This document shows positions 203 through 26,025 of a stretch of DNA of 26,025 bases, in pieces. Source of the stretch: a virus; the IMG/VR virus record IMGVR_UViG_3300035199_000145, positions 1 to 26,025 of that record. One strand, 5' to 3'. The stretch's first letter is position 1. Every line of letters begins with the position of its first letter. Under the pieces are notes generated by a model. That model was given only the letters and a program-made list of their open reading frames with translations. It made no database searches and was not told the origin of the DNA. Both the position numbers and the translations under genes were made by a program.

Positions 203-696
203 TTAACAGGATGCTAAGAGGAGCTGGCAAATACGCTGGTGCCATCAGTCCTATTGAGATATTCAACGCAGAGCAGTGGAGTAAGCTCGGTAGCTCTGGT
301 TTCCGAAACAACATACAAGACGCTACCGCTATGGGCGTCATGAACATAAAAGACGCCATGTCCAGGCGTGGTAAGGAAGGTTATGCCGGTTTCAAGAACT
401 ACTTCGAGGGATATAACGTCGGAGAGGAAATTGGCACCATAGCAGGCAACACTATGGACCTAAGGAGACGATTGAGACTAGGTACAGCTATGGGCGCAGG
501 TCTATACGCAGCTAGTAGTCTAACTATGGGTAGTGACAGCTTGGTCCCTAAGAGCATGCGCACTGCAGCCAAAATAGGAATACACGGTACCATTGCGGCA
601 GGTCTAACTAAGGCACACCCAGCAGCAGGCGCGGCCTATGCAGGGTGGGGCATACTTAACATGACAAGGCGCGGTGACAACATGGGGCCATTCTAA
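199..696 (+). CDS. Glycine/alanine-rich hydrophobic protein, function unknown
   Basis: 165 residues. The first half is mixed and polar; the second half (about residues 90-155) contains glycine- and alanine-rich hydrophobic stretches, such as the segments around GTAMGAGLYAASSL and AAGAAYAGWGIL, which could insert into membranes. The start ATG 199 overlaps the preceding stop (ATGA), and the gene ends in a TAATG junction with the next one. Only a weak ribosome binding site is visible, so coupling is likely. It is the first of three adjacent proteins of similar composition (199-2797). I do not recognise a family. Inference: a virion-carried protein that may act at the membrane during DNA entry. 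A different structural role is equally possible. Confidence 0.7.
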   Translation: MINRMLRGAGKYAGAISPIEIFNAEQWSKLGSSGFRNNIQDATAMGVMNIKDAMSRRGKEGYAGFKNYFEGYNVGEEIGTIAGNTMDLRRRLRLGTAMGAGLYAASSLTMGSDSLVPKSMRTAAKIGIHGTIAAGLTKAHPAAGAAYAGWGILNMTRRGDNMGPF

Positions 697-1901
697 TGTT
701 CGGACTAATAGGTGCTGGAGCCAGGATGGGCATTAAGGGGGCCTTCAGAGGGGGCATGGCCACAGGTGGTGCTCTTGGGTGGGGTAACGTTGGTCGTATG
801 GCCGGTGGTGCCTCCCTGTACATGGGTGCGGGTGCAGCTGCCAATGTAATGGAGCGTGATCAGATCCCCGGCTACTCAATCGGTGGCGCATACCCATTTA
901 TGGCTCGTGGTATAGGTCTACTCGGTGGTGGTGGCATGTTTGCCACTGGTGCAGTGAGAGGACTGGGTAGTGCAGCCGGGAAGGCATATGGTTCCATGAA
1001 TCGCATGGATCTGGCAGCAGGGGCAAGATCTCGCTTATCGGGCAATAGAGGTAGGCTAAGCTACAATAAAGATCAGATAGCTGCCAATAGAACGCAGTAC
1101 AGCGTCATGGATAGAAGGTTTAACAGAGAAACCGATAGACTTGTTGGTGAAATCAACACCCCAATGGCCCGACCTAGGAAGCACACAAGCAGGAAAAATA
1201 GACAGAGGCTCAAGGGGGAGTACAGTCAGCGTTGGAGGGAAAACACGGCAGCTGCTAATCAGAATGAGATTGCTGCAGGCCAGTTCAGGGGTGAAAACCT
1301 TGGACGAAGAGCAGAACTCGGAGGAAGATCAGACAGAATACGAACTCACCAACAATCTATCAGGAATAGGTATACCCAGGCCAAGGGCGGCGATATGGGG
1401 GCCATGCAGAGCTTCGGTGTTGGCAAGACAGGGGCTGGGCGCTTCATCGGTGGGATGCAGAACTTCAGCTCAGCCAGGCTCATGGGCAAGGGCGCTATAT
1501 TTGGCGCTAAGATGGCAGGAGCCGCATCCTATGGTGTGGTGAAAGCACCAGGCGTGGTAGCTGCTGACTCGTTACGTATGCTCAGATTCGGACTAGACAA
1601 GGGATATAGAAATAGCAGAACCATGTTCTCCTTTGCCGATGAAGGCCTGGGATTCGCCACGGGCAATCCTTTGGGCGGTATGGGTTCTCGTGCCGTCGGT
1701 TGGGGAGCACTAGCCGGTGCAGGCACAGTAGCCTTCAATTTGAACGTCTTCGGAGGGGAGATGGACCCAACAAGGGGTATAGCTGGTGCAGGCACCCAGT
1801 TCTATGATCCAAGCAGTGGTAGAAAGCCTCGTCGCATGATGGACAGCGCTGCACACCACTCAACAGTCGGACTCACTCAGTCACTACACAGGAATAGGTA
1901 A
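696..1901 (+). CDS. Large glycine-rich basic protein with Arg-rich central region
   Basis: 401 residues in three parts. Residues about 1-105 are glycine/alanine-rich and hydrophobic, with repeated small-residue patterns (GGGGMFATGAVRGLG). Residues about 109-233 are strongly basic, rich in Arg, Asn and Gln, and probably helical, like a nucleic-acid-binding or coiled segment. The remainder is again glycine-rich with a hydrophobic stretch near residues 328-350. The protein ends in a basic tail (RKPRRMMDS ... SLHRNR) that resembles the end of the next protein. Both junctions are TAATG overlaps (696 and 1901). No family is recognised. Inference: an internal or ejected virion protein, since hydrophobic glycine-rich plus basic segments would suit membrane passage of DNA. 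Scaffold-like or tail roles cannot be excluded. Confidence 0.75.
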   Translation: MFGLIGAGARMGIKGAFRGGMATGGALGWGNVGRMAGGASLYMGAGAAANVMERDQIPGYSIGGAYPFMARGIGLLGGGGMFATGAVRGLGSAAGKAYGSMNRMDLAAGARSRLSGNRGRLSYNKDQIAANRTQYSVMDRRFNRETDRLVGEINTPMARPRKHTSRKNRQRLKGEYSQRWRENTAAANQNEIAAGQFRGENLGRRAELGGRSDRIRTHQQSIRNRYTQAKGGDMGAMQSFGVGKTGAGRFIGGMQNFSSARLMGKGAIFGAKMAGAASYGVVKAPGVVAADSLRMLRFGLDKGYRNSRTMFSFADEGLGFATGNPLGGMGSRAVGWGALAGAGTVAFNLNVFGGEMDPTRGIAGAGTQFYDPSSGRKPRRMMDSAAHHSTVGLTQSLHRNR

Positions 1902-2797
1902 TGTCAATCTTAGGTGGATTAAGCACTGCAATGGGTAGCACAATGGTAGGCGGTACACTCGGCGCTGCCGGCGTACTCGCACTTGGCTACGGGATTGGCA
2001 AGTCTACCTACGAATATTCCGGAGCCAACACGAATGATCCCACCGAAAGAGAGGGCCTAATCAGTCCATGGGCTGCTCGGACAGCACATGGAGTCTTCTC
2101 GGGTGAGAACATGCTACTCAACATCGGGGCAGGCCTAGGTGGAATGTTCGGTGGCAACATGATGATGAAGAGTGCCATGAACGACCCGAGTATGCGTGGA
2201 GCCATACATAGGATGTCGGGCGCGGCCCAAACTATCGATATTGGGCAGGCACGGCTCGGTGTCGGCAACGATCCCATGCTGAGACAGGGAGCAGCAGCAC
2301 AACAGCTTGCTAGAGCTAGGAAGGCTAGACCTACTGGTTTCCTTAACAGGATATTCGGTCGTGGCGCTAGACGCGGCAACATCAGTACTCTTGAGTACCT
2401 ATCCAATGATGGTGCCAAGGTAGACAGCGGTAGGCTCATTCAACACAATACGGGTGGCAAGGTAGGCAGCGCAAGAGCTACAGCGGCACTGACGAAAGCA
2501 GGTGCTAGTGCCGGGGCCATGAAGAGGCTCAGGACGGGCGCTGGCCTGAGAAGGTTCGGCAGCATGGCCATGTGGGCACCACTTGCCTTCATGGGCTTCG
2601 ACATGGTGGCTAGTTCACTAGAGATGTCGGCACCAGGACCTCCAAGAGAGCAACCAGACAGACCATTCATGGGTGGAACATTCATGGATTCAGATCAAGC
2701 GTTTACCCAGAGACGTAGAGCCCTACAGGTAATACATGACTCTCAATACTCAGGAAGGGCAGGCCTAGGAAACGAAGCCTCTCTCGTACACAGATAA
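1901..2797 (+). CDS. Glycine-rich basic protein ending in GLGNEASLVHR
   Basis: 298 residues. The N-terminus (about 5-35) is a glycine-rich hydrophobic segment (GGTLGAAGVLALGYGIG), followed by a second one near residues 70-90 (LLNIGAGLGGMFGG). The middle is basic, with clusters such as RARKARPTGF and GRGARRG. A hydrophobic stretch near residues 220-240 is followed by a proline-rich linker and a charged end. The last 20 or so residues carry DS-x6-GL-x4-SL-x-HR, matching the end of the preceding protein. The start is in a TAATG junction and the end is in another that leads into the terminase gene. No family is recognised. Its position and composition suggest a virion protein of the same group as its two upstream neighbours. 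Confidence 0.75.
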   Translation: MSILGGLSTAMGSTMVGGTLGAAGVLALGYGIGKSTYEYSGANTNDPTEREGLISPWAARTAHGVFSGENMLLNIGAGLGGMFGGNMMMKSAMNDPSMRGAIHRMSGAAQTIDIGQARLGVGNDPMLRQGAAAQQLARARKARPTGFLNRIFGRGARRGNISTLEYLSNDGAKVDSGRLIQHNTGGKVGSARATAALTKAGASAGAMKRLRTGAGLRRFGSMAMWAPLAFMGFDMVASSLEMSAPGPPREQPDRPFMGGTFMDSDQAFTQRRRALQVIHDSQYSGRAGLGNEASLVHR

Positions 2798-4734
2798 TGA
2801 CCGACGATCGCGTCAATATGATAGAGAACGAGGATAATGTACACGACTATGGTCGTCCGTACTTTCCTGAGCGTAACTACCTAGCAAATGGTTATGTACC
2901 TATCGGTGAGCCTAAGGAACACTTCTGCAAGCAGTGTGTCAAGTACTATGCACGACTGAACATCAAGAACATCTCCAAAGAGCCGTTCATGCCTCAGTGT
3001 CATGGTGACATAGTAGATCACAACAAAATAGAGCAGGGGAACATGACAGATGAGGAATACGGCCTCTACAATGTCTATGCTGACCCTGTGGCCTTTGCCA
3101 AGGCAGAATTGAACTGGGTACCTCGCTGGTATCAGAAGGAGATGCTCAGGTGTACCTCATACAAGAAGGTAGCACGTGCTGGACGTCGTTCTGGCAAGAC
3201 AGAGGTCATGGCAGTCAAGATCCTCTATTTGATGTACACCAATGTTGATTTCCAGATACTAGTCGTCTGTCCCTACCAGTCACAGGTAGACAGGGTGTTC
3301 GAGATCGTCAGGACACTGATTGCTGGCTCTTACTCATACAAGGAGTCAGTCACTAAGGACAACAGCTCTCCACCACAGCTAATCAAGCTGGAGAACGGCT
3401 CACAGGTCAAGGGCTTCTCATCTGGTGCCAAGTCAGGCGGTAAGTCAACTCAGATTCGTGGTCAGGACGCTCACGCTATTTTCCTTGATGAGATGGACTA
3501 CCTTGGTGACGATGACCTAGAAGCTATCCTCGCTATTCTGGCCTCGCACCCTGACTGCCAGCTATGGGCCTCTTCAACACCCACAGGCAACAGAGGGTAC
3601 TTCTTCCACTGGATCATTGACAAGAACAACAGGTTCAAGGAGTTCCACTACCTGTCGTCTGAATCCCCTAGCTGGACACCAGAGACAGAGGAGTTCCTGA
3701 AGGAACAGTATCCGGATGCTGTGTATGCGCGTGAGTTCCTCGCTGAGTTCGGTGAAGAGAGCTACGGTATCTACAAGAACGTCGATATCAACAAGGCACT
3801 AAGAGACTACACGTACGAGAAGTGTCAGTACAACGGTGGCTCTAGATACATACTCGGTGTGGACTGGAACCAGAACGCTGGTACTCACATGGTAGTAGTG
3901 GAGTGCTTCAAGACAGGCGATGGCACCAATGACCTTGTGTATCTAGTGGTAGACAAGCTGATCATCGCTAGGCAGGAGTTCACCCAGATCAAGTCAGTAG
4001 AGGAGATAGTCAGGCTCACACACAAGTGGAGTGTTGACTACATCTACGTTGATGCTGGGTATGGTGCCACACAAGTCGAGATGCTGAGGAAGTTCGGCAA
4101 GGACAACCCCAAGACCAAGATAGCTCAGAAGGTCAAGCCAGTAGAGATGGGTGGTAACCTACTGATCCGTGATCCATTCACAAATGAGAAAGTCAAGAAG
4201 CCAGCCAAGGCATTCATTGTGGGTCAGTCTGCCAAACAGCTGGAGGCAGGGCTATGTGTCTTCCCCCGCTCAGAGGACACTAACGCTGTTGTGTCTGAGG
4301 AAGATGGGGATGGTGGCGAGCAGGTTGGCCTAGTGCAGCAGATGCGCATGTATAGGGTTGAGAAGATTGCGAAGTCTGGTTCACCTACGTATACTCAGGG
4401 ATACGACCATACCTTGACTGCATGGCAGCTAGCTATAGCCGGGTTCGTACTAGAGTACTCCGACATCAGGAAGATGATGAGTTCCTTTGTCATAGCGACA
4501 TCTGGTAGGTTCGGAGAAAAGCAGGACAAGGATGGGGCAGCCAAGAAGACAGATGACCTAAAGAAGAAGCTTATGCCAGCACCCAGGGCACTGTCTATCG
4601 ATTCAGGGTCATATGGACAGGGTACTCTTGGGGCCCTAAAGAGAGACAAGTTTGTGAAGCAGTTCGAACACAAGCAGAGACAAGACAGAGGCAAAATGCC
4701 TCCGTTCAAACCAGGTAAGCGGTCTAGCTTTTAA
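2797..4734 (+). CDS. terL: Terminase large subunit (packaging ATPase and nuclease)
   Basis: 645 residues. This motor protein uses ATP to pump DNA through the portal and cuts the genome concatemer. The ATPase half shows a Walker A loop GRRSGKT (129-135), a Walker B AIFLDEMD (227-234, D231/E232) and a coupling motif SSTPTG (259-264). The RNase H-like nuclease half shows D356 in GVDW, D419 in YVDAGYG and D537 in GYDH, the expected acidic triad. Ahead of the ATPase are about 110 extra residues with C44, C47, C68 and H69, a possible metal site. The start is in a TAATG overlap without a clear ribosome binding site. No small terminase gene is recognisable directly upstream, where it is often found. 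Identification is very secure. Confidence 0.96.
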   Translation: MTDDRVNMIENEDNVHDYGRPYFPERNYLANGYVPIGEPKEHFCKQCVKYYARLNIKNISKEPFMPQCHGDIVDHNKIEQGNMTDEEYGLYNVYADPVAFAKAELNWVPRWYQKEMLRCTSYKKVARAGRRSGKTEVMAVKILYLMYTNVDFQILVVCPYQSQVDRVFEIVRTLIAGSYSYKESVTKDNSSPPQLIKLENGSQVKGFSSGAKSGGKSTQIRGQDAHAIFLDEMDYLGDDDLEAILAILASHPDCQLWASSTPTGNRGYFFHWIIDKNNRFKEFHYLSSESPSWTPETEEFLKEQYPDAVYAREFLAEFGEESYGIYKNVDINKALRDYTYEKCQYNGGSRYILGVDWNQNAGTHMVVVECFKTGDGTNDLVYLVVDKLIIARQEFTQIKSVEEIVRLTHKWSVDYIYVDAGYGATQVEMLRKFGKDNPKTKIAQKVKPVEMGGNLLIRDPFTNEKVKKPAKAFIVGQSAKQLEAGLCVFPRSEDTNAVVSEEDGDGGEQVGLVQQMRMYRVEKIAKSGSPTYTQGYDHTLTAWQLAIAGFVLEYSDIRKMMSSFVIATSGRFGEKQDKDGAAKKTDDLKKKLMPAPRALSIDSGSYGQGTLGALKRDKFVKQFEHKQRQDRGKMPPFKPGKRSSF

Positions 4735-6821
4735 TGCCACAATATAGAGACTACTTCTTCGAAGGCGACTTCAATATACGGCGTAAGCGTATACTTGACC
4801 ATGTAGATGGCAGGATGCGTGATCTGAACAAGCTCCGCCTCAGTGATGAGGAGGAGTCACAGCGTTTTATCAACAATGTGTTCAGCGCCTACGAGCGTGC
4901 CTCCGACAAAGCCAACATCATCATCAAGAACGCTGCCAGGGTAGCTGACAAGTACACTATCACTGTGCCGGTAGAATCTAATGATGTGCGTATGGCCGTC
5001 CATAGGCAGGACCCAGAGGGCAGCAATAGAGGTGAGTTCCTTACCTTCGAGCTGTTCACACGCTGCGCAGACAAGATAGAGGACCAAGCCACAAGGGTAA
5101 GCTTCGATCTAGTCGATACCCGTGTCAGTGTGGACCCGGTCGGTAACGAGCTTAGGGTACGTGGCAAGATTGATGCTGAGATAGCAAATGATGGTGACCT
5201 AGGATTCATACTAGCCCTAGGCGCTCAGTTCCTAACCTTATATCTCATACATGAGATCACAGGGATGTGGAGGGGCCCTGAGAAGATACAGGCAGCACAG
5301 GTGGCTGCTGGGCCATTAGCCGTTGAAACAGCGACTCCATTTCTGGAGACACTTAGGGAAATGGCTATAGGCATGGCTGTCGGCTTCACTGTCATGGGTA
5401 TCAATGAGACATTGGCTTTCCTTCTAGCAGATCAGGGCGCAGACAAGTCCCTGGACCGAGATAAGTTCGTCCAGGGGGCAATTGGACAAGCTAGCCAGGT
5501 TGATCTACCCCCTCTCACCCAAACTGCCATCAAAGCCATAGGTATCAATGACCACATGACCATCATGAAGTTCGCCATGAAGTTCGTGTCGGCCACACCC
5601 GACAGGGGCTATGAGTTCTGGCTAGCATATATGATCGCCCGCAGGACACGTTACTTTTCTAAACGTGCCCTCTCCATGAAATCTATCTACTCCCGCAAGG
5701 CTTACGCGTCTAAAAACTTGGGCTTCACCTCAGACGGTGCGCTTATAGAGCCAGACGACGTAGTGCTACAGGACCCCAACCTAGCCAACAGCCCAGGAGG
5801 TACCAACTTCGTTGAGTTCCTGGCTGCCGGTGTGGTCTCCACCCTCAACTCCTCTGTCACTAGGCCACATGATAGCTTCCTATGTGTAGCTGATGAGGAG
5901 AGCTCTGGGTTTGAGGACTCCCTGAACGAAATAGCGCAGGTACTTGACACTAAGCTCGTTAGGGACGCCATCTGCTGTCTAGTCAGGTTCCTGGGTAATC
6001 TGGATGTATCTATGCTTGAGAAGATAGCCGTACTGATGCGTGTGTATCTAAACGCACAGGTCAACCTCCTAAACTTACGCATCGAGAACTTTTTGACCGC
6101 GCTGCTTAACTGGGTCAAGAGCACCATCTTGAGGATGATCGCGGCCATCATACAGCAGATTATCGACAAAATTGCCAGGTTGATCCTTGACTTATTGCTC
6201 GATTTGGTGGAGCACATCAACATTCTCATGGAATGTCCTCTCATCATGGACCTAATCAATGCTATACTAGACGCGGTCTACAAGATACTCCTCGACCTTG
6301 AAGAGCTGATAAACAGGCTTATCATCGATGTGGTACTAGATGGACTGTTGGGGTTGAGGTTAAACGTTCCTGAGCAGATGAAGAGTAGTGAAACTTCATC
6401 CTCAGGGCTGTACCATGTACACAAGAAACGATCTATCAACAACATCTTGAGGATCCTCGAAAGGATACTCAGCACGCTCACGGACAGTATCAGAATCTGT
6501 GAGGACGATGAGGTTGAACAATTGAGAGCAGAGGGTCGGCAATTCATCACCTTCGATGACCTGACTGACGAACTGACCGAAGACCTAAATGACTACCTTG
6601 ACATCCCACAAGATGTTAAGGAGGCTTACTTTAGTGACGCAAAGCCGATCAGGCTTCAGGATGGCTCATTGCTACCTGATTATCGGGACGGTGCGATAAG
6701 GTTAGGCACGTATACTCAGAGTGACCCAGATGTGGTGCTCGATTGTCTGCCCTTATTCGGGTCCGAAAACATAGCCAGGATCCTTGGTGAAAATGCAAGG
6801 AGGCCAAATAATGGCACTTAG
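4734..6821 (+). CDS. Unknown 695-residue protein between terminase and portal
   Basis: The N-terminal 140 residues are mixed and charged. Two hydrophobic segments follow, at about residues 153-178 (FILALGAQFLTLYLI) and 205-232 (AIGMAVGFTVMGI). Residues about 412-545 form a remarkable run of Leu/Ile-rich amphipathic helices (for example RMIAAIIQQIIDKIARLILD). The last 100 residues are acidic. The start is a TAATG overlap with the terminase stop, and the end overlaps the portal start by 11 bases. Placement between terminase and portal suggests a structural or assembly protein of the head vertex, but I recognise no family. Membrane association or a coiled bundle on the portal are the two readings I would consider. 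Neither is proven. Confidence 0.8.
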   Translation: MPQYRDYFFEGDFNIRRKRILDHVDGRMRDLNKLRLSDEEESQRFINNVFSAYERASDKANIIIKNAARVADKYTITVPVESNDVRMAVHRQDPEGSNRGEFLTFELFTRCADKIEDQATRVSFDLVDTRVSVDPVGNELRVRGKIDAEIANDGDLGFILALGAQFLTLYLIHEITGMWRGPEKIQAAQVAAGPLAVETATPFLETLREMAIGMAVGFTVMGINETLAFLLADQGADKSLDRDKFVQGAIGQASQVDLPPLTQTAIKAIGINDHMTIMKFAMKFVSATPDRGYEFWLAYMIARRTRYFSKRALSMKSIYSRKAYASKNLGFTSDGALIEPDDVVLQDPNLANSPGGTNFVEFLAAGVVSTLNSSVTRPHDSFLCVADEESSGFEDSLNEIAQVLDTKLVRDAICCLVRFLGNLDVSMLEKIAVLMRVYLNAQVNLLNLRIENFLTALLNWVKSTILRMIAAIIQQIIDKIARLILDLLLDLVEHINILMECPLIMDLINAILDAVYKILLDLEELINRLIIDVVLDGLLGLRLNVPEQMKSSETSSSGLYHVHKKRSINNILRILERILSTLTDSIRICEDDEVEQLRAEGRQFITFDDLTDELTEDLNDYLDIPQDVKEAYFSDAKPIRLQDGSLLPDYRDGAIRLGTYTQSDPDVVLDCLPLFGSENIARILGENARRPNNGT

Positions 6822-8970
6822 AGACTACTTACCTTGGAATAGAAAGAAGGAGCCAGTACCAGTAGTTGATGATAGAACAAGAGGCGCACGAGTAGCTGAG
6901 GATGTCGGTAAGATCGTACAAGACATCAAGCTGGCCATAGGGCAGGCAGAACCCAACAAACCATCCGCACGAGTAGTGAAGATGGAGCGTAGGGCAGCCA
7001 ACCCAGCCATAGGCTACAACGTTGTATCTACACCCCTCGGGTCTAGGAACAACAATTTTAGGGGCCCATTCCATGACCTGAGCGAAATTGCCAGGGCGGT
7101 GGATACGGAGTCACTATTGGCGCGCTCAATCCAGAAGCATAGGGAGCTAATCCTCAAGGAGGGCTACGACCTACGCGGTAAGGACAAGGATACCATCAAG
7201 TACATCAAGGACAGGCTCAGAGAGTTCGAGTGGGTCACAGACGTGACTACCGAGCAATGGGTGAGAGATCTAGCTACTAACATAGTGACTTTCTCAACCG
7301 CGTTCATGGTACTGAGGAGAGACCCCCTCAAGTCTAGCGGCAATGTTATCCGTAGACACGGCAAGAGGCTAGATCCGATTGCTGGTATCTTCCCTATGGA
7401 TCCGGTGTCTGTATTGGTGGAGCAGAACCTCCACGGCAGGCCGACCAGATGGAAGCAGGATATCGAGGGGCACATCAAGATCCATGATTCTGATGATGTC
7501 ATAGATCTCACTATAGATCGCAAGACTGGCTTCGTGTTTGGTACCCCATACTCGATCCCAGTACTAGACGATATTAGAGCACTGAGAAGGTTAGAGGAGC
7601 TTGTAGAACTAGTCACCCATAAGTGGCTGTTCCCCCTATTCCACTACACGGTAGGCACCGAGGAGGAGCCAGCCGGTGTTATCGAACTACCAGATGGCAC
7701 CAGTATGGAAGAGGTGGACATCGTTCGCGCTCAGGTCCAGTCCATGCCCACAGAAGGTGGCATGATTACGCCTCATAGACATCAGATCGAGTTAATTGGT
7801 GCAGAGGGGCAGGTACTGGATATAACTGCGTATATCGAGCATTTCAAAATACGTGTGATGTCCGGCCTGAGATTGTCTGGTATAGACGTGGGTCAGGGGG
7901 ACACTGCTAACCGTGGTACGGCCACCACTATGGCCAAGAGCATGGTTGACTCGGTAAAAGACTACCAGTGCGTACTGTCGGACCATATTACGACTAGGCT
8001 ACTCGACGTCCTCCTACTAGAGGGTGGATTCGATGTGACCCCTGAGAACAGGGTTACCTTCGTCTTCCCAACCCCTGATAGGGAGGAGTTGAGGAGTCAT
8101 CAGAACCATGGGCTGACTCTATTCCAGTCCAACGCAGTGACCATGGATGAGTTCAGGCGTGAGTACCTAAACAGGGAACCCATGAGCCAAGATGAACTTG
8201 AAAATGACACGTTCTTCGGTCTGTTCGAAAGGCCGGAAAGTGAGCTACAGGCTAATATTGCGCTGTCTAAGCCAGCTGGCGGTGGTAGTTCCTCCTTATC
8301 CCCTGGGTCTAAGCCCACTGGGTCGTCTGGAGGTGGTGCCGGTAAGCTCGCCAAGTCCCTAAGTACCCCATCTAATCAGTTTGGAAAAATGCCTACACGA
8401 CCAACAATACCAGCCAATGACTATGTCAATGGCATAATGAACCTATGGTCCGACTTCAAAAATGAAGTGATCGCATCCCCAGGTAAGATCAAGGATGCCT
8501 CTGCTACGTTCGAGGATTGCGCTATTTACACTGGTAAAAGGCACATCCACCGAGCTACAGATGAGGGACTTGAGAAGGCAAAACAGGATTCTGGTAACCA
8601 GGACCTATCGCTATGTCACGAAGTTTATGATGTCTTAATGCTAAAGACGCTTAAAAACGACTTGCAAAAAATCTGTCATAAGCTTATGATTCTAGTTAAG
8701 GATAAGACCAGCGATCCATCTGGTACGTCTGGTGTCTTCGGTGCGGTAGGCATAGAACTACGCTTCATGATGAGGAGACATACACAGACTGCATACAGGT
8801 ATGGGTACGCGCAGGCCTGCAAGCAAGCAGGTTATGATACGATTGCATTAGAAAATTCTGACGGAGAGACGCAAGATGAAATACGACTTGACAATCTCAC
8901 AGTCAGGGATATGTACGCGCATCTAGAACCTGGATACAACTTGAAAGTCAAAGGAAGGATCGATGGCTAA
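6811..8970 (+). CDS. Portal protein with a C-terminal extension
   Basis: 719 residues from ATG 6811, chosen because AAGGAGG (6797-6803) sits seven bases upstream; TTG and GTG codons further upstream in frame lack a site. The portal is the dodecameric ring through which DNA enters and leaves the capsid. Portal-like features are the early segment with RSIQKHRELILKEGYDLRG, the part around LATNIVTFSTAFMVLRRDP, a beta-rich middle with PMDPVSV, and the long helical section with LRRLEELVELVTHKWLFPL. At about residues 487-525 a Gly/Ser/Pro linker leads to a separate 190-residue C-terminal domain. That domain contains RRHTQTAYRYGYAQACKQAG, which resembles the MuF-type head morphogenesis motif. The gene overlaps both the previous and the following gene. 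Confidence 0.88.
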   Translation: MALRDYLPWNRKKEPVPVVDDRTRGARVAEDVGKIVQDIKLAIGQAEPNKPSARVVKMERRAANPAIGYNVVSTPLGSRNNNFRGPFHDLSEIARAVDTESLLARSIQKHRELILKEGYDLRGKDKDTIKYIKDRLREFEWVTDVTTEQWVRDLATNIVTFSTAFMVLRRDPLKSSGNVIRRHGKRLDPIAGIFPMDPVSVLVEQNLHGRPTRWKQDIEGHIKIHDSDDVIDLTIDRKTGFVFGTPYSIPVLDDIRALRRLEELVELVTHKWLFPLFHYTVGTEEEPAGVIELPDGTSMEEVDIVRAQVQSMPTEGGMITPHRHQIELIGAEGQVLDITAYIEHFKIRVMSGLRLSGIDVGQGDTANRGTATTMAKSMVDSVKDYQCVLSDHITTRLLDVLLLEGGFDVTPENRVTFVFPTPDREELRSHQNHGLTLFQSNAVTMDEFRREYLNREPMSQDELENDTFFGLFERPESELQANIALSKPAGGGSSSLSPGSKPTGSSGGGAGKLAKSLSTPSNQFGKMPTRPTIPANDYVNGIMNLWSDFKNEVIASPGKIKDASATFEDCAIYTGKRHIHRATDEGLEKAKQDSGNQDLSLCHEVYDVLMLKTLKNDLQKICHKLMILVKDKTSDPSGTSGVFGAVGIELRFMMRRHTQTAYRYGYAQACKQAGYDTIALENSDGETQDEIRLDNLTVRDMYAHLEPGYNLKVKGRIDG

Positions 8971-11761: not shown

Positions 11762-13195
11762 ATGAGTAAATTCAATCCAGAACTAGTAGGGAAGGTGTTT
11801 GACAGCGACCAGAAGGAAGTTCTCCTCGACCTACAAGGTGACCTAGCTTCACAGCTAGATTCCAAGATCGAGTCGGGAACTGAAAAAGCTGTTGCATCTA
11901 TCCTGCAGAAGCAGGGCATCGACCGTGAGATCGTTGGTCTTACTGATGCCGAGCAAGCTTACCTCAAGATGCAGAAGACGGTTAGCCGTACCCGCTCACT
12001 GTGGGACAACAACGGCTTCGTTCCAGGGGTTAGGGGACGTATTACTCTCGCAGACCTTCAGAAGAAGGATGTTGCTCACAAGGCTAACTGGGAAAAGAAT
12101 GGACAGATGATCGATGGTGTGTTTAGCACCGATCAGCCGCTCATCCTTCCCCGTGTGCTTGAGCAGGTTGTGCGTGAGTCTATCGAGCCCAACCTAGTAC
12201 TCACTCCGCTGTTCGAGCGTGTCAGTGTTACTGACGCGGGTACGACTATCACCTTCCCTGCTGTTGGTAACGCGCTAGTCGCTGCTGATATCCCAGAGGG
12301 TGGTGAGTACCCAGAGCAGAGCCTTGAGTTCGCCGGTGAGGTCGTAGCGAAGATCGGCAAGTCTGGTGTGGCTGTAAAGCTCACTGACGAGATGATCCGC
12401 TACAGCATGTTCGACATTATGTCGATGCACCTGCGCGCTGCGGGCCGAGCAATGACTCGCCACAAGGAGCAGAAGGTTGCCGACCAGATCTTCGGAAATG
12501 GTACGACTTTCTTCGACAACACCGTCGCTGGTAAGCATACTGCAGGTCGTGGTCCTGATGGTTTCGGTAACGACACCATGACTCTGGACGACATCCTGTT
12601 CCTGTATGCTGACCTATCTAACGCAGGGTTCATCCCTGATACGCTGATCATGCACCCGTTTGCATGGTTCGGTATGGCTCGTGAGCCCGTCATGCGTGAG
12701 CTATTCATGCAAGGTGGGGGACAGGGTATGTACTACCAGAGCTATCAGGGAACCGTTGGTAGTGCAAATGCTTGGCAGGCTAATTCCCTGGTCAACAACA
12801 CTACCTTGGATGACCCGCGTGCGGTCGCGAGTACTTTCACGATCCCCGGAATCACCCCGACACCTCTGAGTGTTATCGTGACTCCCTTCCAGGAGAGCAA
12901 CTCAGCTACTCATACGACTACGATCACTATGTGCTCGCGGTCTGAGCTGGGTCTAATCCTTGAGGATGAGGCACTGGTGACGGAAGAGTGGGATGATCCC
13001 GCGCATGATATCCGTAAGGTGAAGTTCCGTGAGCGCTATGGCCTAGCACTCAAGAACAACGGAACTGCCATTCGCCATGCAAAGAATGTGAACTGGTTCA
13101 ACAAGGGTCACTCCTTCGACGACCTACTCACATGGCAGGCTGGTACTGGTACACTACCTGATATCAGCACTGGTGCTCTCAACATTGTTGGGTAA
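11762..13195 (+). CDS. Major capsid protein, HK97 fold
   Basis: 477 residues. This protein forms the icosahedral shell. An N-terminal helical part of roughly 110 residues (with ESGTEKAVASILQKQG) is likely the delta region that interacts with scaffold and may be cut by the protease. The fold core is recognisable from LFERVSVTDAGTTITFPAV, then EGGEYPEQ (about 178-185), KIGKSGVAVKLTDEMIRYS and the long spine-type helix region. The C-terminal part carries MCSRSELGLILEDEALVTEEW, typical of the P and A domain strands. AGGAG lies at a good distance before ATG 11762. Of 21 Arg codons I count 20 as CGN and one AGG, unlike the early genes in this window. A strong hairpin follows the stop. Confidence 0.93.
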   Translation: MSKFNPELVGKVFDSDQKEVLLDLQGDLASQLDSKIESGTEKAVASILQKQGIDREIVGLTDAEQAYLKMQKTVSRTRSLWDNNGFVPGVRGRITLADLQKKDVAHKANWEKNGQMIDGVFSTDQPLILPRVLEQVVRESIEPNLVLTPLFERVSVTDAGTTITFPAVGNALVAADIPEGGEYPEQSLEFAGEVVAKIGKSGVAVKLTDEMIRYSMFDIMSMHLRAAGRAMTRHKEQKVADQIFGNGTTFFDNTVAGKHTAGRGPDGFGNDTMTLDDILFLYADLSNAGFIPDTLIMHPFAWFGMAREPVMRELFMQGGGQGMYYQSYQGTVGSANAWQANSLVNNTTLDDPRAVASTFTIPGITPTPLSVIVTPFQESNSATHTTTITMCSRSELGLILEDEALVTEEWDDPAHDIRKVKFRERYGLALKNNGTAIRHAKNVNWFNKGHSFDDLLTWQAGTGTLPDISTGALNIVG

Positions 13196-22757: not shown

Positions 22758-23498
22758 ATGTCTATAATCAGCGCACTACCGCCCGACTTAAGGGCGATCA
22801 TACCTGCCGTCAAGCAGGACTATAGTGTTCTCTTTGTAGTTGACATTACTGAACTGTGTATCAATCCAATCGCGCCTGGTTATGCCCTCATAAGGCCTCT
22901 GACTAGGCGCGAATTTAATGGGTTTGCACCCGCCTACGAAGATGACCCAACAACAGTAGAAGACGATGTGATATCATCTTGTCTTGTCTACCCAGATATG
23001 ATTGCGCATAGCAAGCACTATCTGGCTGGCTTTGATCAGTTCGTATCTCAGGCTGTCTTCCTGTGCTCTGGTTTCGCTGGAGAGCAGACCCTCATACGGG
23101 GTGTGCTTGAAGGCAGAGACTATGCCAAGTCCCTCGAAGCAGCTATCACGACTTGGATCTGTAAAGCATTCCCGCGATATATCCCGTCTGATGTAGAGGA
23201 CATGATCTTCGAGGATCAGATGAAGCTCGCCTGTATGGCAGAGAACATCCTCAGCACACCCATTCCGTATGAGGACTTCCTAGACCCGGGTGCTAAGAAA
23301 CAGAAGGAAGAAGACCCGGTAAAACGCATGAAGCGGGACAGAATAGAAAGATTCAATGACAGACAGAAGGCTGCAGCTGCTCCACCTCCCCCAGCAGGGT
23401 CAGTGTCCTTCGGTGAGGGTGCAGAGGGGTACGTTACATCCGACAAGTTCCAGGACGGTCTTGATGGACTAGAGGCTTTCATTGGTCGACCGCAATAG
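22758..23498 (+). CDS. Tail assembly chaperone-like protein, second of a pair
   Basis: 246 residues. ALIRPLTRREFNGFAPAYED, then EDDVISSCLVYPD, then YLAGFDQFVSQAVFLCSGFA repeat the pattern of the previous protein, so the two look like diverged copies. A helical middle is followed by a Lys/Arg-rich segment, a Pro run (PPPPAG) and an acidic end. ATG 22758 has no ribosome binding site; it is in frame with the previous gene, three bases after its stop, so coupling, re-initiation or rare readthrough is likely. The 3' end overlaps the next gene by 17 bases. Confidence 0.68.
   Translation: MSIISALPPDLRAIIPAVKQDYSVLFVVDITELCINPIAPGYALIRPLTRREFNGFAPAYEDDPTTVEDDVISSCLVYPDMIAHSKHYLAGFDQFVSQAVFLCSGFAGEQTLIRGVLEGRDYAKSLEAAITTWICKAFPRYIPSDVEDMIFEDQMKLACMAENILSTPIPYEDFLDPGAKKQKEEDPVKRMKRDRIERFNDRQKAAAAPPPPAGSVSFGEGAEGYVTSDKFQDGLDGLEAFIGRPQ
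23471..23484 (+). promoter_or_regulatory. Ribosome binding site and TTG start of the large final gene
   Basis: AGAGG (23471-23475) lies six bases before TTG 23482. The same frame has a stop at 23470-23472 and no ATG or GTG until ATG 23776, so this site decides the start. Confidence 0.6.
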
Positions 23499-26025
23499 AA
23501 CAGACATAGATAGAGGCGCCAACCTATACCGTGACTTCGTACAAGGAGGTCGCAGTGAGGGTGCACGTCAGAGTCCGTTCATTGATAGAGAGCGACGGGA
23601 AGAGTACCTACGTAGAGCCCGAGAGAAGGAGTCCTCATCTGCCTTCGCAACCATTGGTAAGGTTGCTGCCCTGAGCCTTGGTGCCTGGGCTCTCGGGCGC
23701 ACCATCCCCAAGGATGTTTGGGTAGAGTCTCTACACAAGCTAGGGCACTATGGCAAGAATACGTTCGGTGCCTTCATGGAGGCCAGGAACGAAGCCGTCC
23801 TAAGCATGATGGATCACCGTCATGCTCGTGCTGCTGTCAGTAGAGAGGCCGGTAGTGAGACTGAGCTATCTCGTATCTTCAGGGAGGAGCTCAGGCCATT
23901 CCTCGCAGATATAGATTCTGCGAGGACTGATATAGGCGCAAGGCAACAAGCCGAGCGCATGACCAAAAACATACTGCAGAAGCGCTTCGCTCGCAGTCAT
24001 GTCTCATCTAGCAAGCACGCTGGTCTAACAGTTGGTGATCTAAACCGACTGGGTGCATCTCACGAGTCTAAGTTCGACGTTGTCTCTAAGAGAGCCTACG
24101 AAGACATCATGGATGCACGCCAGAGGCTTGACCCCACTGGCAAGTGGTTCGACAAGCTCGTCGTAGACAGACACCTATACGTAGCACAGCAGGGTAAGAT
24201 CCCTAATGCTATCAATGCCAAGAACGTTAGAGACCTAAGGTGGGCCAGTAAGCGTGCCTTGGGACAAGGTGCGTATAAGGCATTAGGCTTCCAGATCCCG
24301 TTTGTCGGCTTTAAGCCTGTCGATCTCTTCGCTCCCTTATTCAGGCACTTCGCAGGAGAGGGTCCATCAGTAGTCAGGGTCGGTGCCGGTAAGCGCCTAG
24401 CCAGTGACGTAGTGACACCAAGGGGCGGCAGTAGCTACATCGTAGGTGGTGACCTAATGCACTTTGGCGGTGAGGGTGCCTATAACATAGCACCGGGCAG
24501 AAAGTTCACCGCTCGCACGATGGACGCCATAGGCCAAGCCAACAAGGCTCGCCTGGGGCTCAGTCCACTACAAGCAGAAGGCCTTGAGACAGGAGCAGTA
24601 GGGAGCAGAGGAACCTTCTGGGGCAAGATACAAGACGCTCTCGGTATGGGGCCCAAGTTCCGTACCCAGCCTCAGGTGTTCCAGAGGTTCAGTCAGGCTG
24701 CGAGACGTGCAGCTGACCTCAAGTCGGGTAAACAAGAGTTCAGGTTCTTCGATACCATCAGGGCTGGCGACCTACCATTCAAGGATAGGCTCAGGCATCA
24801 AGCCAGAGCAGGCGGTGCATGGAGCCCAGACGATATAGTACCGAACCCATACGCTGGGAAGTCTATTGATGACCTGGGGCGTGTGGAGCGTGCTGCTGCA
24901 TTCATGGGAACAGAGGCTGGTACCCTTGGTGGCGCTAGGCTTGGTGAGTTCATACCCAAAGGTGGTACCCCAACAGCCGCTCGTCCTCTTGGCCAGCAAG
25001 CTCCCAACTGGGCCTTCTTCGAAGATAAGCTATCTACTAAGCTATTCAATACGGCCCACTTCGCAACCAACCGCCTAAACGACCTGATAGGTTCTACCAT
25101 TGGTATAGGTTTCAGACCTTCCATGGGGAACTGGGGCTTCCTATATAACGGTGTCAAGCTCGCTGCGCTTGGTGCCATGCTCAACCCGTTCAATGGCTAT
25201 GCCGTTGACGCCTACAAGTATGTGGATTACCTCTTCAAGAGCGTGACCAGTGGGTTCGGCTATGCACCATGGGAGGGTGTTGGTCCGACTGACGTAGCCA
25301 TCAAGATGTACGAGGGGGCTACCCTCGCTGCAGCTGCTGCCAAGGACATGATCGGGTTCACTATGGCGTCCAGGTACGTCGAGGACCTGATGCCAGGCAC
25401 CATGAGCAGCCAGCTCTCTGGTATAGCTCGTACTGCTGGTGGTGGGTATCTTGGCGCCAGAGCTGGTGGTGCCATTGGCATGGGCGTGGGTATTCTTGCT
25501 AGTGGCATAGGAACAGGTGGTATCTCAGATATCTTCGGTACGCCTATCCTGGGTGCTCGCTCTACCGACACCGCTGCCAACATGTACGACTATTACTTCA
25601 ATCAGAAGGAAGTAGCAGTTAAGAGCAGCCGTTGGTGGATGCTGGGTAGGCAGGACTTCCAGGGAGAGGGTATTGATAGGTTCGAGCCGCACTGGGTCTC
25701 AATGGCCAAGAGTGACTGGCAGTACACCAACACCCTATACGGTAGCAGGAAGGAATACTTCGAGCAGCAGTCCACACTGCCAACACCACACAACCTTTTC
25801 AGCTTCGGTAAGGACGAGGATTACTTCGCAAACAAGCTTGCGGGGTCACGCCCATATCCAATTGCGCCATCTGGCGCGGCAATGCATGAGGGTGAGAGTC
25901 TGCCAATGAGGGCATCTCTACCTCGTGGTCTGTCAGAGGGTGAGCTAGGCAGTATGGGGATGCATCCCCTGACACCTGACTACTCCGATGCTGTCAGCGC
26001 TGAGTCATTTGGCGTACGCGCTAAG
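23482..26025 (+). CDS. 5' part of a very large glycine-rich virion protein (in tape-measure position)
   Basis: I translated this frame from TTG 23482 to the window edge and found no stop: at least 848 residues, continuing beyond. The N-terminus is Arg-rich (RERREEYLRRAREKE), then a hydrophobic stretch at about 54-73 (AFATIGKVAALSLGAWALG). A long mixed region follows. Around 648-682 is a glycine-zipper-like hydrophobic stretch (GGGYLGARAGGAIGMGVG), then a Trp/Arg-rich segment near 716-738 (SRWWMLGRQDFQG, then FEPHW). Position after the chaperone-like pair is that of a tape measure protein, but composition resembles the glycine-rich basic proteins at 199-2797. Either a tape measure with membrane-active parts or an ejected virion protein is possible. 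Confidence 0.75.
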   Translation, partial: MVDRNRTDIDRGANLYRDFVQGGRSEGARQSPFIDRERREEYLRRAREKESSSAFATIGKVAALSLGAWALGRTIPKDVWVESLHKLGHYGKNTFGAFMEARNEAVLSMMDHRHARAAVSREAGSETELSRIFREELRPFLADIDSARTDIGARQQAERMTKNILQKRFARSHVSSSKHAGLTVGDLNRLGASHESKFDVVSKRAYEDIMDARQRLDPTGKWFDKLVVDRHLYVAQQGKIPNAINAKNVRDLRWASKRALGQGAYKALGFQIPFVGFKPVDLFAPLFRHFAGEGPSVVRVGAGKRLASDVVTPRGGSSYIVGGDLMHFGGEGAYNIAPGRKFTARTMDAIGQANKARLGLSPLQAEGLETGAVGSRGTFWGKIQDALGMGPKFRTQPQVFQRFSQAARRAADLKSGKQEFRFFDTIRAGDLPFKDRLRHQARAGGAWSPDDIVPNPYAGKSIDDLGRVERAAAFMGTEAGTLGGARLGEFIPKGGTPTAARPLGQQAPNWAFFEDKLSTKLFNTAHFATNRLNDLIGSTIGIGFRPSMGNWGFLYNGVKLAALGAMLNPFNGYAVDAYKYVDYLFKSVTSGFGYAPWEGVGPTDVAIKMYEGATLAAAAAKDMIGFTMASRYVEDLMPGTMSSQLSGIARTAGGGYLGARAGGAIGMGVGILASGIGTGGISDIFGTPILGARSTDTAANMYDYYFNQKEVAVKSSRWWMLGRQDFQGEGIDRFEPHWVSMAKSDWQYTNTLYGSRKEYFEQQSTLPTPHNLFSFGKDEDYFANKLAGSRPYPIAPSGAAMHEGESLPMRASLPRGLSEGELGSMGMHPLTPDYSDAVSAESFGVRAK

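Follow-up and report, generated by a model that had tools for sequence, protein, structure and literature searches.

Two adjacent glycine-rich proteins, p2 and p3, are encoded in a 26-kb (26,025-nucleotide) viral record, the whole of which is referred to here as the window. The two proteins end in superficially similar residues, and the question raised by this locus was whether these ends represent one tag borne by both proteins or distinct elements, and what purpose such ends might serve. The window carries a myovirus morphogenesis operon with the following features:

2–202, + strand: C-terminal end of the upstream gene, clipped at the window edge, placed in a PD-(D/E)XK-type nuclease slot by position only
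199–696, + strand: p1, 165 residues, ending ..MTRRGDNMGPF, with full-length homology to L010 1060–1650 (33% identity, E 2e-25)
696–1901, + strand: p2, 401 residues, Gly/Ala-rich (32%), net basic, bearing tail B
1851–1898, + strand: tail B of p2, AHHSTVGLTQSLHRNR, a conserved C-terminal motif, from a leave-window-out profile and alignment
1901–2797, + strand: p3, 298 residues, Gly/Ala-rich (29%), net basic, bearing tail A
2537–2620, + strand: predicted hydrophobic helix of p3 (residues 213–240), before the linker (AlphaFold2, pLDDT about 56–67, low overall confidence)
2687–2794, + strand: tail A of p3, DSDQAFTQRRRALQVIHDSQYSGRAGLGNEASLVHR, from profiles and alignments; a predicted single helix (residues 265–297, pLDDT 61–77)
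2768–2776, + strand: G-x-E (GNE) motif within tail A, unchanged across 21 aligned tails
2797–4734, + strand: terminase large subunit (TerL), directly downstream of tail A (phrog_2, E 8e-36; Pfam Terminase_6N, E 3.5e-8)
6784–8970: portal (Pfam/PHROG profile search)
from 8963: gene in the protease position
11762–13195: major capsid protein (Pfam/PHROG profile search)

The slot before p1 is occupied by a PD-(D/E)XK-type nuclease protein (phrog_1706) in the related loci L010 (3–1118) and L014 (1–1428). Of the gene in this slot, the window keeps just the final 66 residues, and because this fragment had no significant match to L010, its assignment is positional. Positional homologues of p1 in L010, L014 and L012 have comparable ..GN/DNxGPF-type ends. 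Searches with p2 and p3 gave zero Pfam hits and only marginal PHROG matches of unknown function. We take the genes after the major capsid protein to be of sheath/tube type, followed by a large gene from 23482 that is clipped at the window end, these roles being assigned from position. The large protein (23482–26025) follows two chaperone-like genes, which places it in the tape-measure position, and had no match in Pfam, PHROG or the PDB; it has a block in common with CDS0026 of Moorella phage MTATph1 near RWW/RYW..W.Y..T.Y....LPTP (E 9e-7). In MTATph1, the gene after the tape-measure-position gene (CDS0027, L002 30512–34441; 1309 residues) encodes a DNA-polymerase-exonuclease-like domain (phrog_192, E 5e-11).

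The initial annotation had proposed that p2 and p3 share one C-terminal motif. Its reading frames (696–1901 and 1901–2797) were confirmed, with ends ...RRMMDSAAHHSTVGLTQSLHRNR and ...QRRRALQVIHDSQYSGRAGLGNEASLVHR, as was the hydrophobic Gly-rich stretch and linker preceding each. The common motif did not hold up, as local alignment of the last 32–34 residues against shuffles was at chance (p = 0.76, 0.67 and 0.41 for three gap settings, one each) and 9–36% of unrelated ORF tails scored as well as the p2/p3 pair. When the window was left out of the motif A profile, p3 scored 56.8 bits (E 4e-16) and p2 -1.0 bit. Nor do DS, GL and SL form a common signature among relatives: GL..LHR is retained in p2 homologues and DS is not, and the residues retained in p3 homologues are T, R, G and E. 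Cross tests of the family profiles against shuffles (A-to-B p 0.41, B-to-A p 0.16) indicated that A and B are not detectably related, and each tail is present as a single copy per genome, on a separate gene. An identical tag on both proteins has the superficial GL..SL.HR likeness of their ends in its favor, but in the face of these scores we consider it highly improbable. Proteins p2 and p3 share no demonstrable motif; each separately ends in its own conserved tail.

Tail A comprises 36 residues with the pattern TxRQRAxxAIxxSxxxARSAxGNEAxxMHR-stop. A tblastn search with p3 returned one weak match, to the last 46 residues only, in MTATph1, at the second gene before the terminase. Further loci were found via TerL relatives by reading the genes upstream of their TerL, and a p3-like end was identified in Bacillus phage KLEB27-3 gp009, Acinetobacter phage ME3_12 and environmental contigs, from which 23 distinct loci were aligned. 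The T, R, G and E residues did not vary in a 21-row alignment of representative tails plus a consensus row. When IMG/VR was scanned with a degenerate pattern built on a 7-row subset of this alignment, 108 of 111 matches were confirmed, and 80 loci were retained for position and neighbor counts. Tail A was found in MTATph1, KLEB27-3 and ME3, and in no fewer than 80 environmental phage contigs. The window's p3 fits the family pattern (TxR..AI..S...R...GxEA, at the leave-window-out score given above), and TerL then follows. Tail A occurred exactly once per record in 15 records, three whole isolated-phage genomes among these. A pattern scan of the genome contigs of 84,980 bacterial and archaeal species produced no confirmed match, consistent with lytic viruses. 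The suggestion that p3 ends in a docking or targeting tail survived in part: motif A was 0–4 residues from the stop in all 80 IMG/VR loci and also C-terminal in the 23 diverse loci, on bodies that were unrecognizable, and what was lost was the single tag common to p2 and p3. The AlphaFold2 models were poor (mean pLDDT 49 and 57) and suggest, with low confidence, that tail A is a helix.

Tail B has a different motif (STxGLxxxLHRxR / GDLVxxMHNxR) and was on the gene preceding tail A in 59 of 71 scorable loci of the IMG/VR set; in several of the apparent misses the tail-A gene was shortened or split. The ends of tail B are ..GASGSMVFGMHNARKG in KLEB27-3 gp008, ..GATGDLVFALNALRRG in MTATph1 CDS0251, ..NASGDIVLGMHNSRRGY in freshwater phages, ..NTDGLVQSLHRLR in L010, ..STAGLTLALHRNNRKY in L011 and ..STVGLTQSLHRNR in p2 of the window. 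Of 5853 tails scored with a leave-window-out profile, p2 was the best outside the training set, with a modest score (8.7 bits, E about 1), and its last 87 residues were 40% identical to those of its positional homologue, L010 1654–3423 (E 5e-5). It also fits the family pattern [ST]xG[LDI]..x[LM]H[RN]xR, carried by the gene that precedes the tail-A gene. Taken individually, the B tails that diverge most (L010, L014 and L028) failed leave-one-out, and they were assigned largely by gene position. In whole-genome scans, every genome found to have tail B had one copy.

A third conserved end, tail D (..TAGVVGNLDRNKIGHhrMGNdKYNHLY), was present as a single copy per genome in 11 of 15 records (E <= 1e-18), with one extra marginal match (E 0.81). 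A related variant, with a ..H......K..HLF-type end, is present in L005, L012, L013 and L015, and a profile of either D subset ranked the members of the other next after its own, with weak E-values of 0.07–0.4. Profile cross tests (D-to-B p 1.8e-4, B-to-D 0.16) indicate that D and B may be distantly related in sequence; apart from this one-way signal, no core common to tails A, B and D was found. Carriers of tail D include the following:

L005, 4388–5185
L012, 2694–3611
L013, 1251–2420
L015, 1518–4010
L020, 3878–7417
L003, 3038–3814

The bodies that carry tail D differ, with some having an M15 peptidase plus phrog_3108, some phrog_3108 alone, and others being large proteins without known domains. 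The genes upstream of B encode an M15 peptidase plus phrog_3108 in L013, phrog_3108 (lysozyme-like) alone in L005 and L012, a staphylococcal nuclease (SNase) in L026, and a PD-(D/E)XK-type nuclease in L010 and L014, with weak exonuclease matches in L025 and ME3_11. The SNase protein of L026 (2–1585; PF00565, E 5.5e-19) ends ..MKRENIIRHHRG, and a similar end, ..MKRENVVKHYRG, is present on ORF 2276–2464 of the same locus.

Comparison of three ~200-kb relatives revealed how different the ends and bodies of these proteins are in their conservation. Among 121 reciprocal-best orthologues of G003 and G007, with the third genome, G013, included where present, the B and A genes ranked first and second, respectively, by how far identity in the final 30 residues exceeded that of the body. 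The identity of the last 30 residues versus the body was 0.50 v 0.04 for the B gene and 0.70 v 0.28 for the A gene. Tail D ranked 70 in this test, with a last-30 identity of 0.0, yet it was recovered by profile, and the low rank is probably due to a mis-aligned end. Ranks 3 and 4 were held by G003 2824–3243 (+) and 150408–150974 (-). Within the tail codons, pS was 0.69–0.77 and pN 0.03–0.11, and the body pN/pS was 0.22–0.64; saturated synonymous sites together with low pN in the tail indicate that constraint acts on the peptide. Between groups, similarity of the bodies was undetectable across the 23 distinct tail-A loci. The bodies of the tail-bearing proteins are 20–33% Gly+Ala and net positive, their hydrophobic segments are weak as transmembrane helices, and one B protein had a weak glycine-zipper match under the curated cut-off. 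An all-against-all comparison of C-terminal tails within four genomes yielded noise and repeats only. The possibility of many tag copies per genome was rejected by whole-genome scans, in which A and D were each present once per genome. The tails are strictly C-terminal, conserved at the protein level, present one each per genome and tied to gene order, and their bodies are divergent.

A constant end on a changing body, of one kind per gene and with neighboring genes for enzymes acting on cell walls and nucleic acids, fits tails dedicated to docking or loading virion cargo. We put at about even the chance that the tails individually serve as dedicated docking/loading elements for a set of virion-associated, probably ejected, proteins. 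This proposal places p2 and p3 in a set of genes immediately before the terminase, in a large lineage of contractile phages with long tails, each member ending in its own tail: A on p3, B on p2, and D on a further-upstream protein in many relatives. Each tail, probably helical, would dock onto a conserved partner in virion assembly, for which the portal/neck, the tail lumen, the tape-measure/hub complex and the prohead interior are candidate sites, and the fast-changing Gly/Ala-rich basic body would be the cargo or membrane-active part delivered at infection. Location in the virion, ejection and the docking partner are inferred, the virion link from gene context and by analogy. Nuclease, peptidase and lysozyme-like domains are kinds described in head-packaged, injected phage proteins (Iyer et al. 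2017, PMC5512222), and other head-packaged injected proteins (PMC5694885) and the T4 capsid targeting sequence (PMC9026906) offer further analogies for the virion link.

It could be argued that the tail is simply the best-conserved domain, such as a helical oligomerization segment, of an ordinary structural protein that has otherwise drifted. Like any structural protein, the tail bearers are single orthologous genes with one copy per genome, and within a freshwater subgroup the bodies are still alignable, at 30–87% identity. However, the tail is always terminal, and the 36-residue end is kept on tail-A ORFs of 108 to 729 residues whose bodies cannot be recognized between groups, so that we regard this explanation as unlikely.

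The position of tail A raises the prospect that p3 is a partner of the packaging motor, similar to a small terminase, with tail A binding TerL or the portal during DNA packaging. TerL was the next gene after tail A in 77 of 80 loci, and in the window the p3 stop and TerL start overlap as TAATG. This role appears quite unlikely, as no tail-A protein tested matched a small-terminase profile, the proteins vary widely in size with Gly/Ala-rich bodies, other genes intervene between tail A and TerL in L004, L005 and L026, and tails B and D would be left unexplained. Small HNH-endonuclease-like ORFs (HHI.P....NG.TLC..CH) were observed between the tail-A gene and TerL at L004 685–1089, L005 6143–6451 and L010 4275–4583, and the TerL relative L019 has a different gene directly upstream of TerL, resembling one located between A and TerL in L026.

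We give similarly little credence to a lysis cassette, in which small membrane proteins would work as holins or spanin-like factors next to an endolysin that is exported. In its favor, signal-peptide-like N-termini are present on the M15 peptidase and phrog_3108 proteins encoded upstream in L013, L005 and L012, and ME3 has an annotated lysozyme upstream. Yet the tail-bearing proteins reach 500–1179 residues and are basic with few true transmembrane helices, and nucleases are encoded in the same region of relatives.

The prohead protease of phage SPN3US cleaves after A-x-E (PMC10052503), and the G-x-E that is invariant in tail A could conceivably be a prohead-protease site at which the last ~six residues are trimmed inside the prohead. 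This is very doubtful, since P3 is G and not A, T and R are just as constant, and a G-x-E site is absent from tails B and D; the G-x-E of tail A only resembles the glutamate motif cut by the protease. Lastly, conservation at the DNA level (a pac site, or a ribosome-binding or regulatory signal before TerL) might be entertained from the adjoining TerL and the stop/start overlap, but it is refuted by the codon analysis, as saturated synonymous change (pS 0.69–0.82) with retained amino acids means that such a signal is not the reason for the conservation, and TerL is not directly next in several phages.

The docking/loading reading has partial parallels in known systems. The T4 capsid targeting sequence (CTS) is a short terminal peptide that takes variable cargo proteins into the particle (PMC9026906). 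The tails here are likewise short terminal peptides on variable bodies, with their cargo role proposed from sequence. However, the CTS, which the prohead protease removes after a glutamate motif, is N-terminal and about 10 residues long, whereas the tails here are C-terminal (tail A in 80/80 loci), up to about 36 residues long and different on each protein. Polyvalent proteins (Iyer et al. 2017) are similar in their late-gene phage context and in that the neighbors of loci related to ours encode the enzymatic domains predicted there as injected. The consulted part of that paper describes no common C-terminal tail (PMC5512222), and p2 and p3 are without a recognized enzymatic domain, let alone the two or more disparate recognized domains per polypeptide of polyvalent proteins. 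The likeness to the ejection or pilot proteins of T7 and P22 is in proposed function only, as virion-internal proteins delivered with the DNA; no informative homology to them was found for p2 or p3 in Pfam or PHROGs, and a sequence search of the PDB with tail A gave no match. The T6SS effector Tde1 (PMC10240207) also has glycine-rich membrane-translocation segments and is delivered by a contractile machine, but the only counterpart in the B proteins is the below-cut-off glycine-zipper match in one of them, and no homology is claimed.

A limited literature search did not find a prior description of such tails. To our knowledge, the sole well-dissected address label is the N-terminal one of T4. 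Bacillus phage 0305phi8-36 is reportedly the classical relative with virion mass spectrometry. How very large virions select and inject their cargo is little understood. We tentatively suggest, as a possibility below even odds, that tails A, B and D are loading addresses for an injected arsenal, making them a C-terminal equivalent of the T4 capsid targeting sequence with several addresses. The lineage of large contractile phages that carries them is worldwide and mostly uncultured, and its quickly changing arsenal may comprise nucleases, peptidases, lysozyme-like proteins and glycine-rich membrane proteins. A strictly C-terminal conserved tail provides a search handle for possible virion cargo with unrecognizable bodies in uncultured phages.
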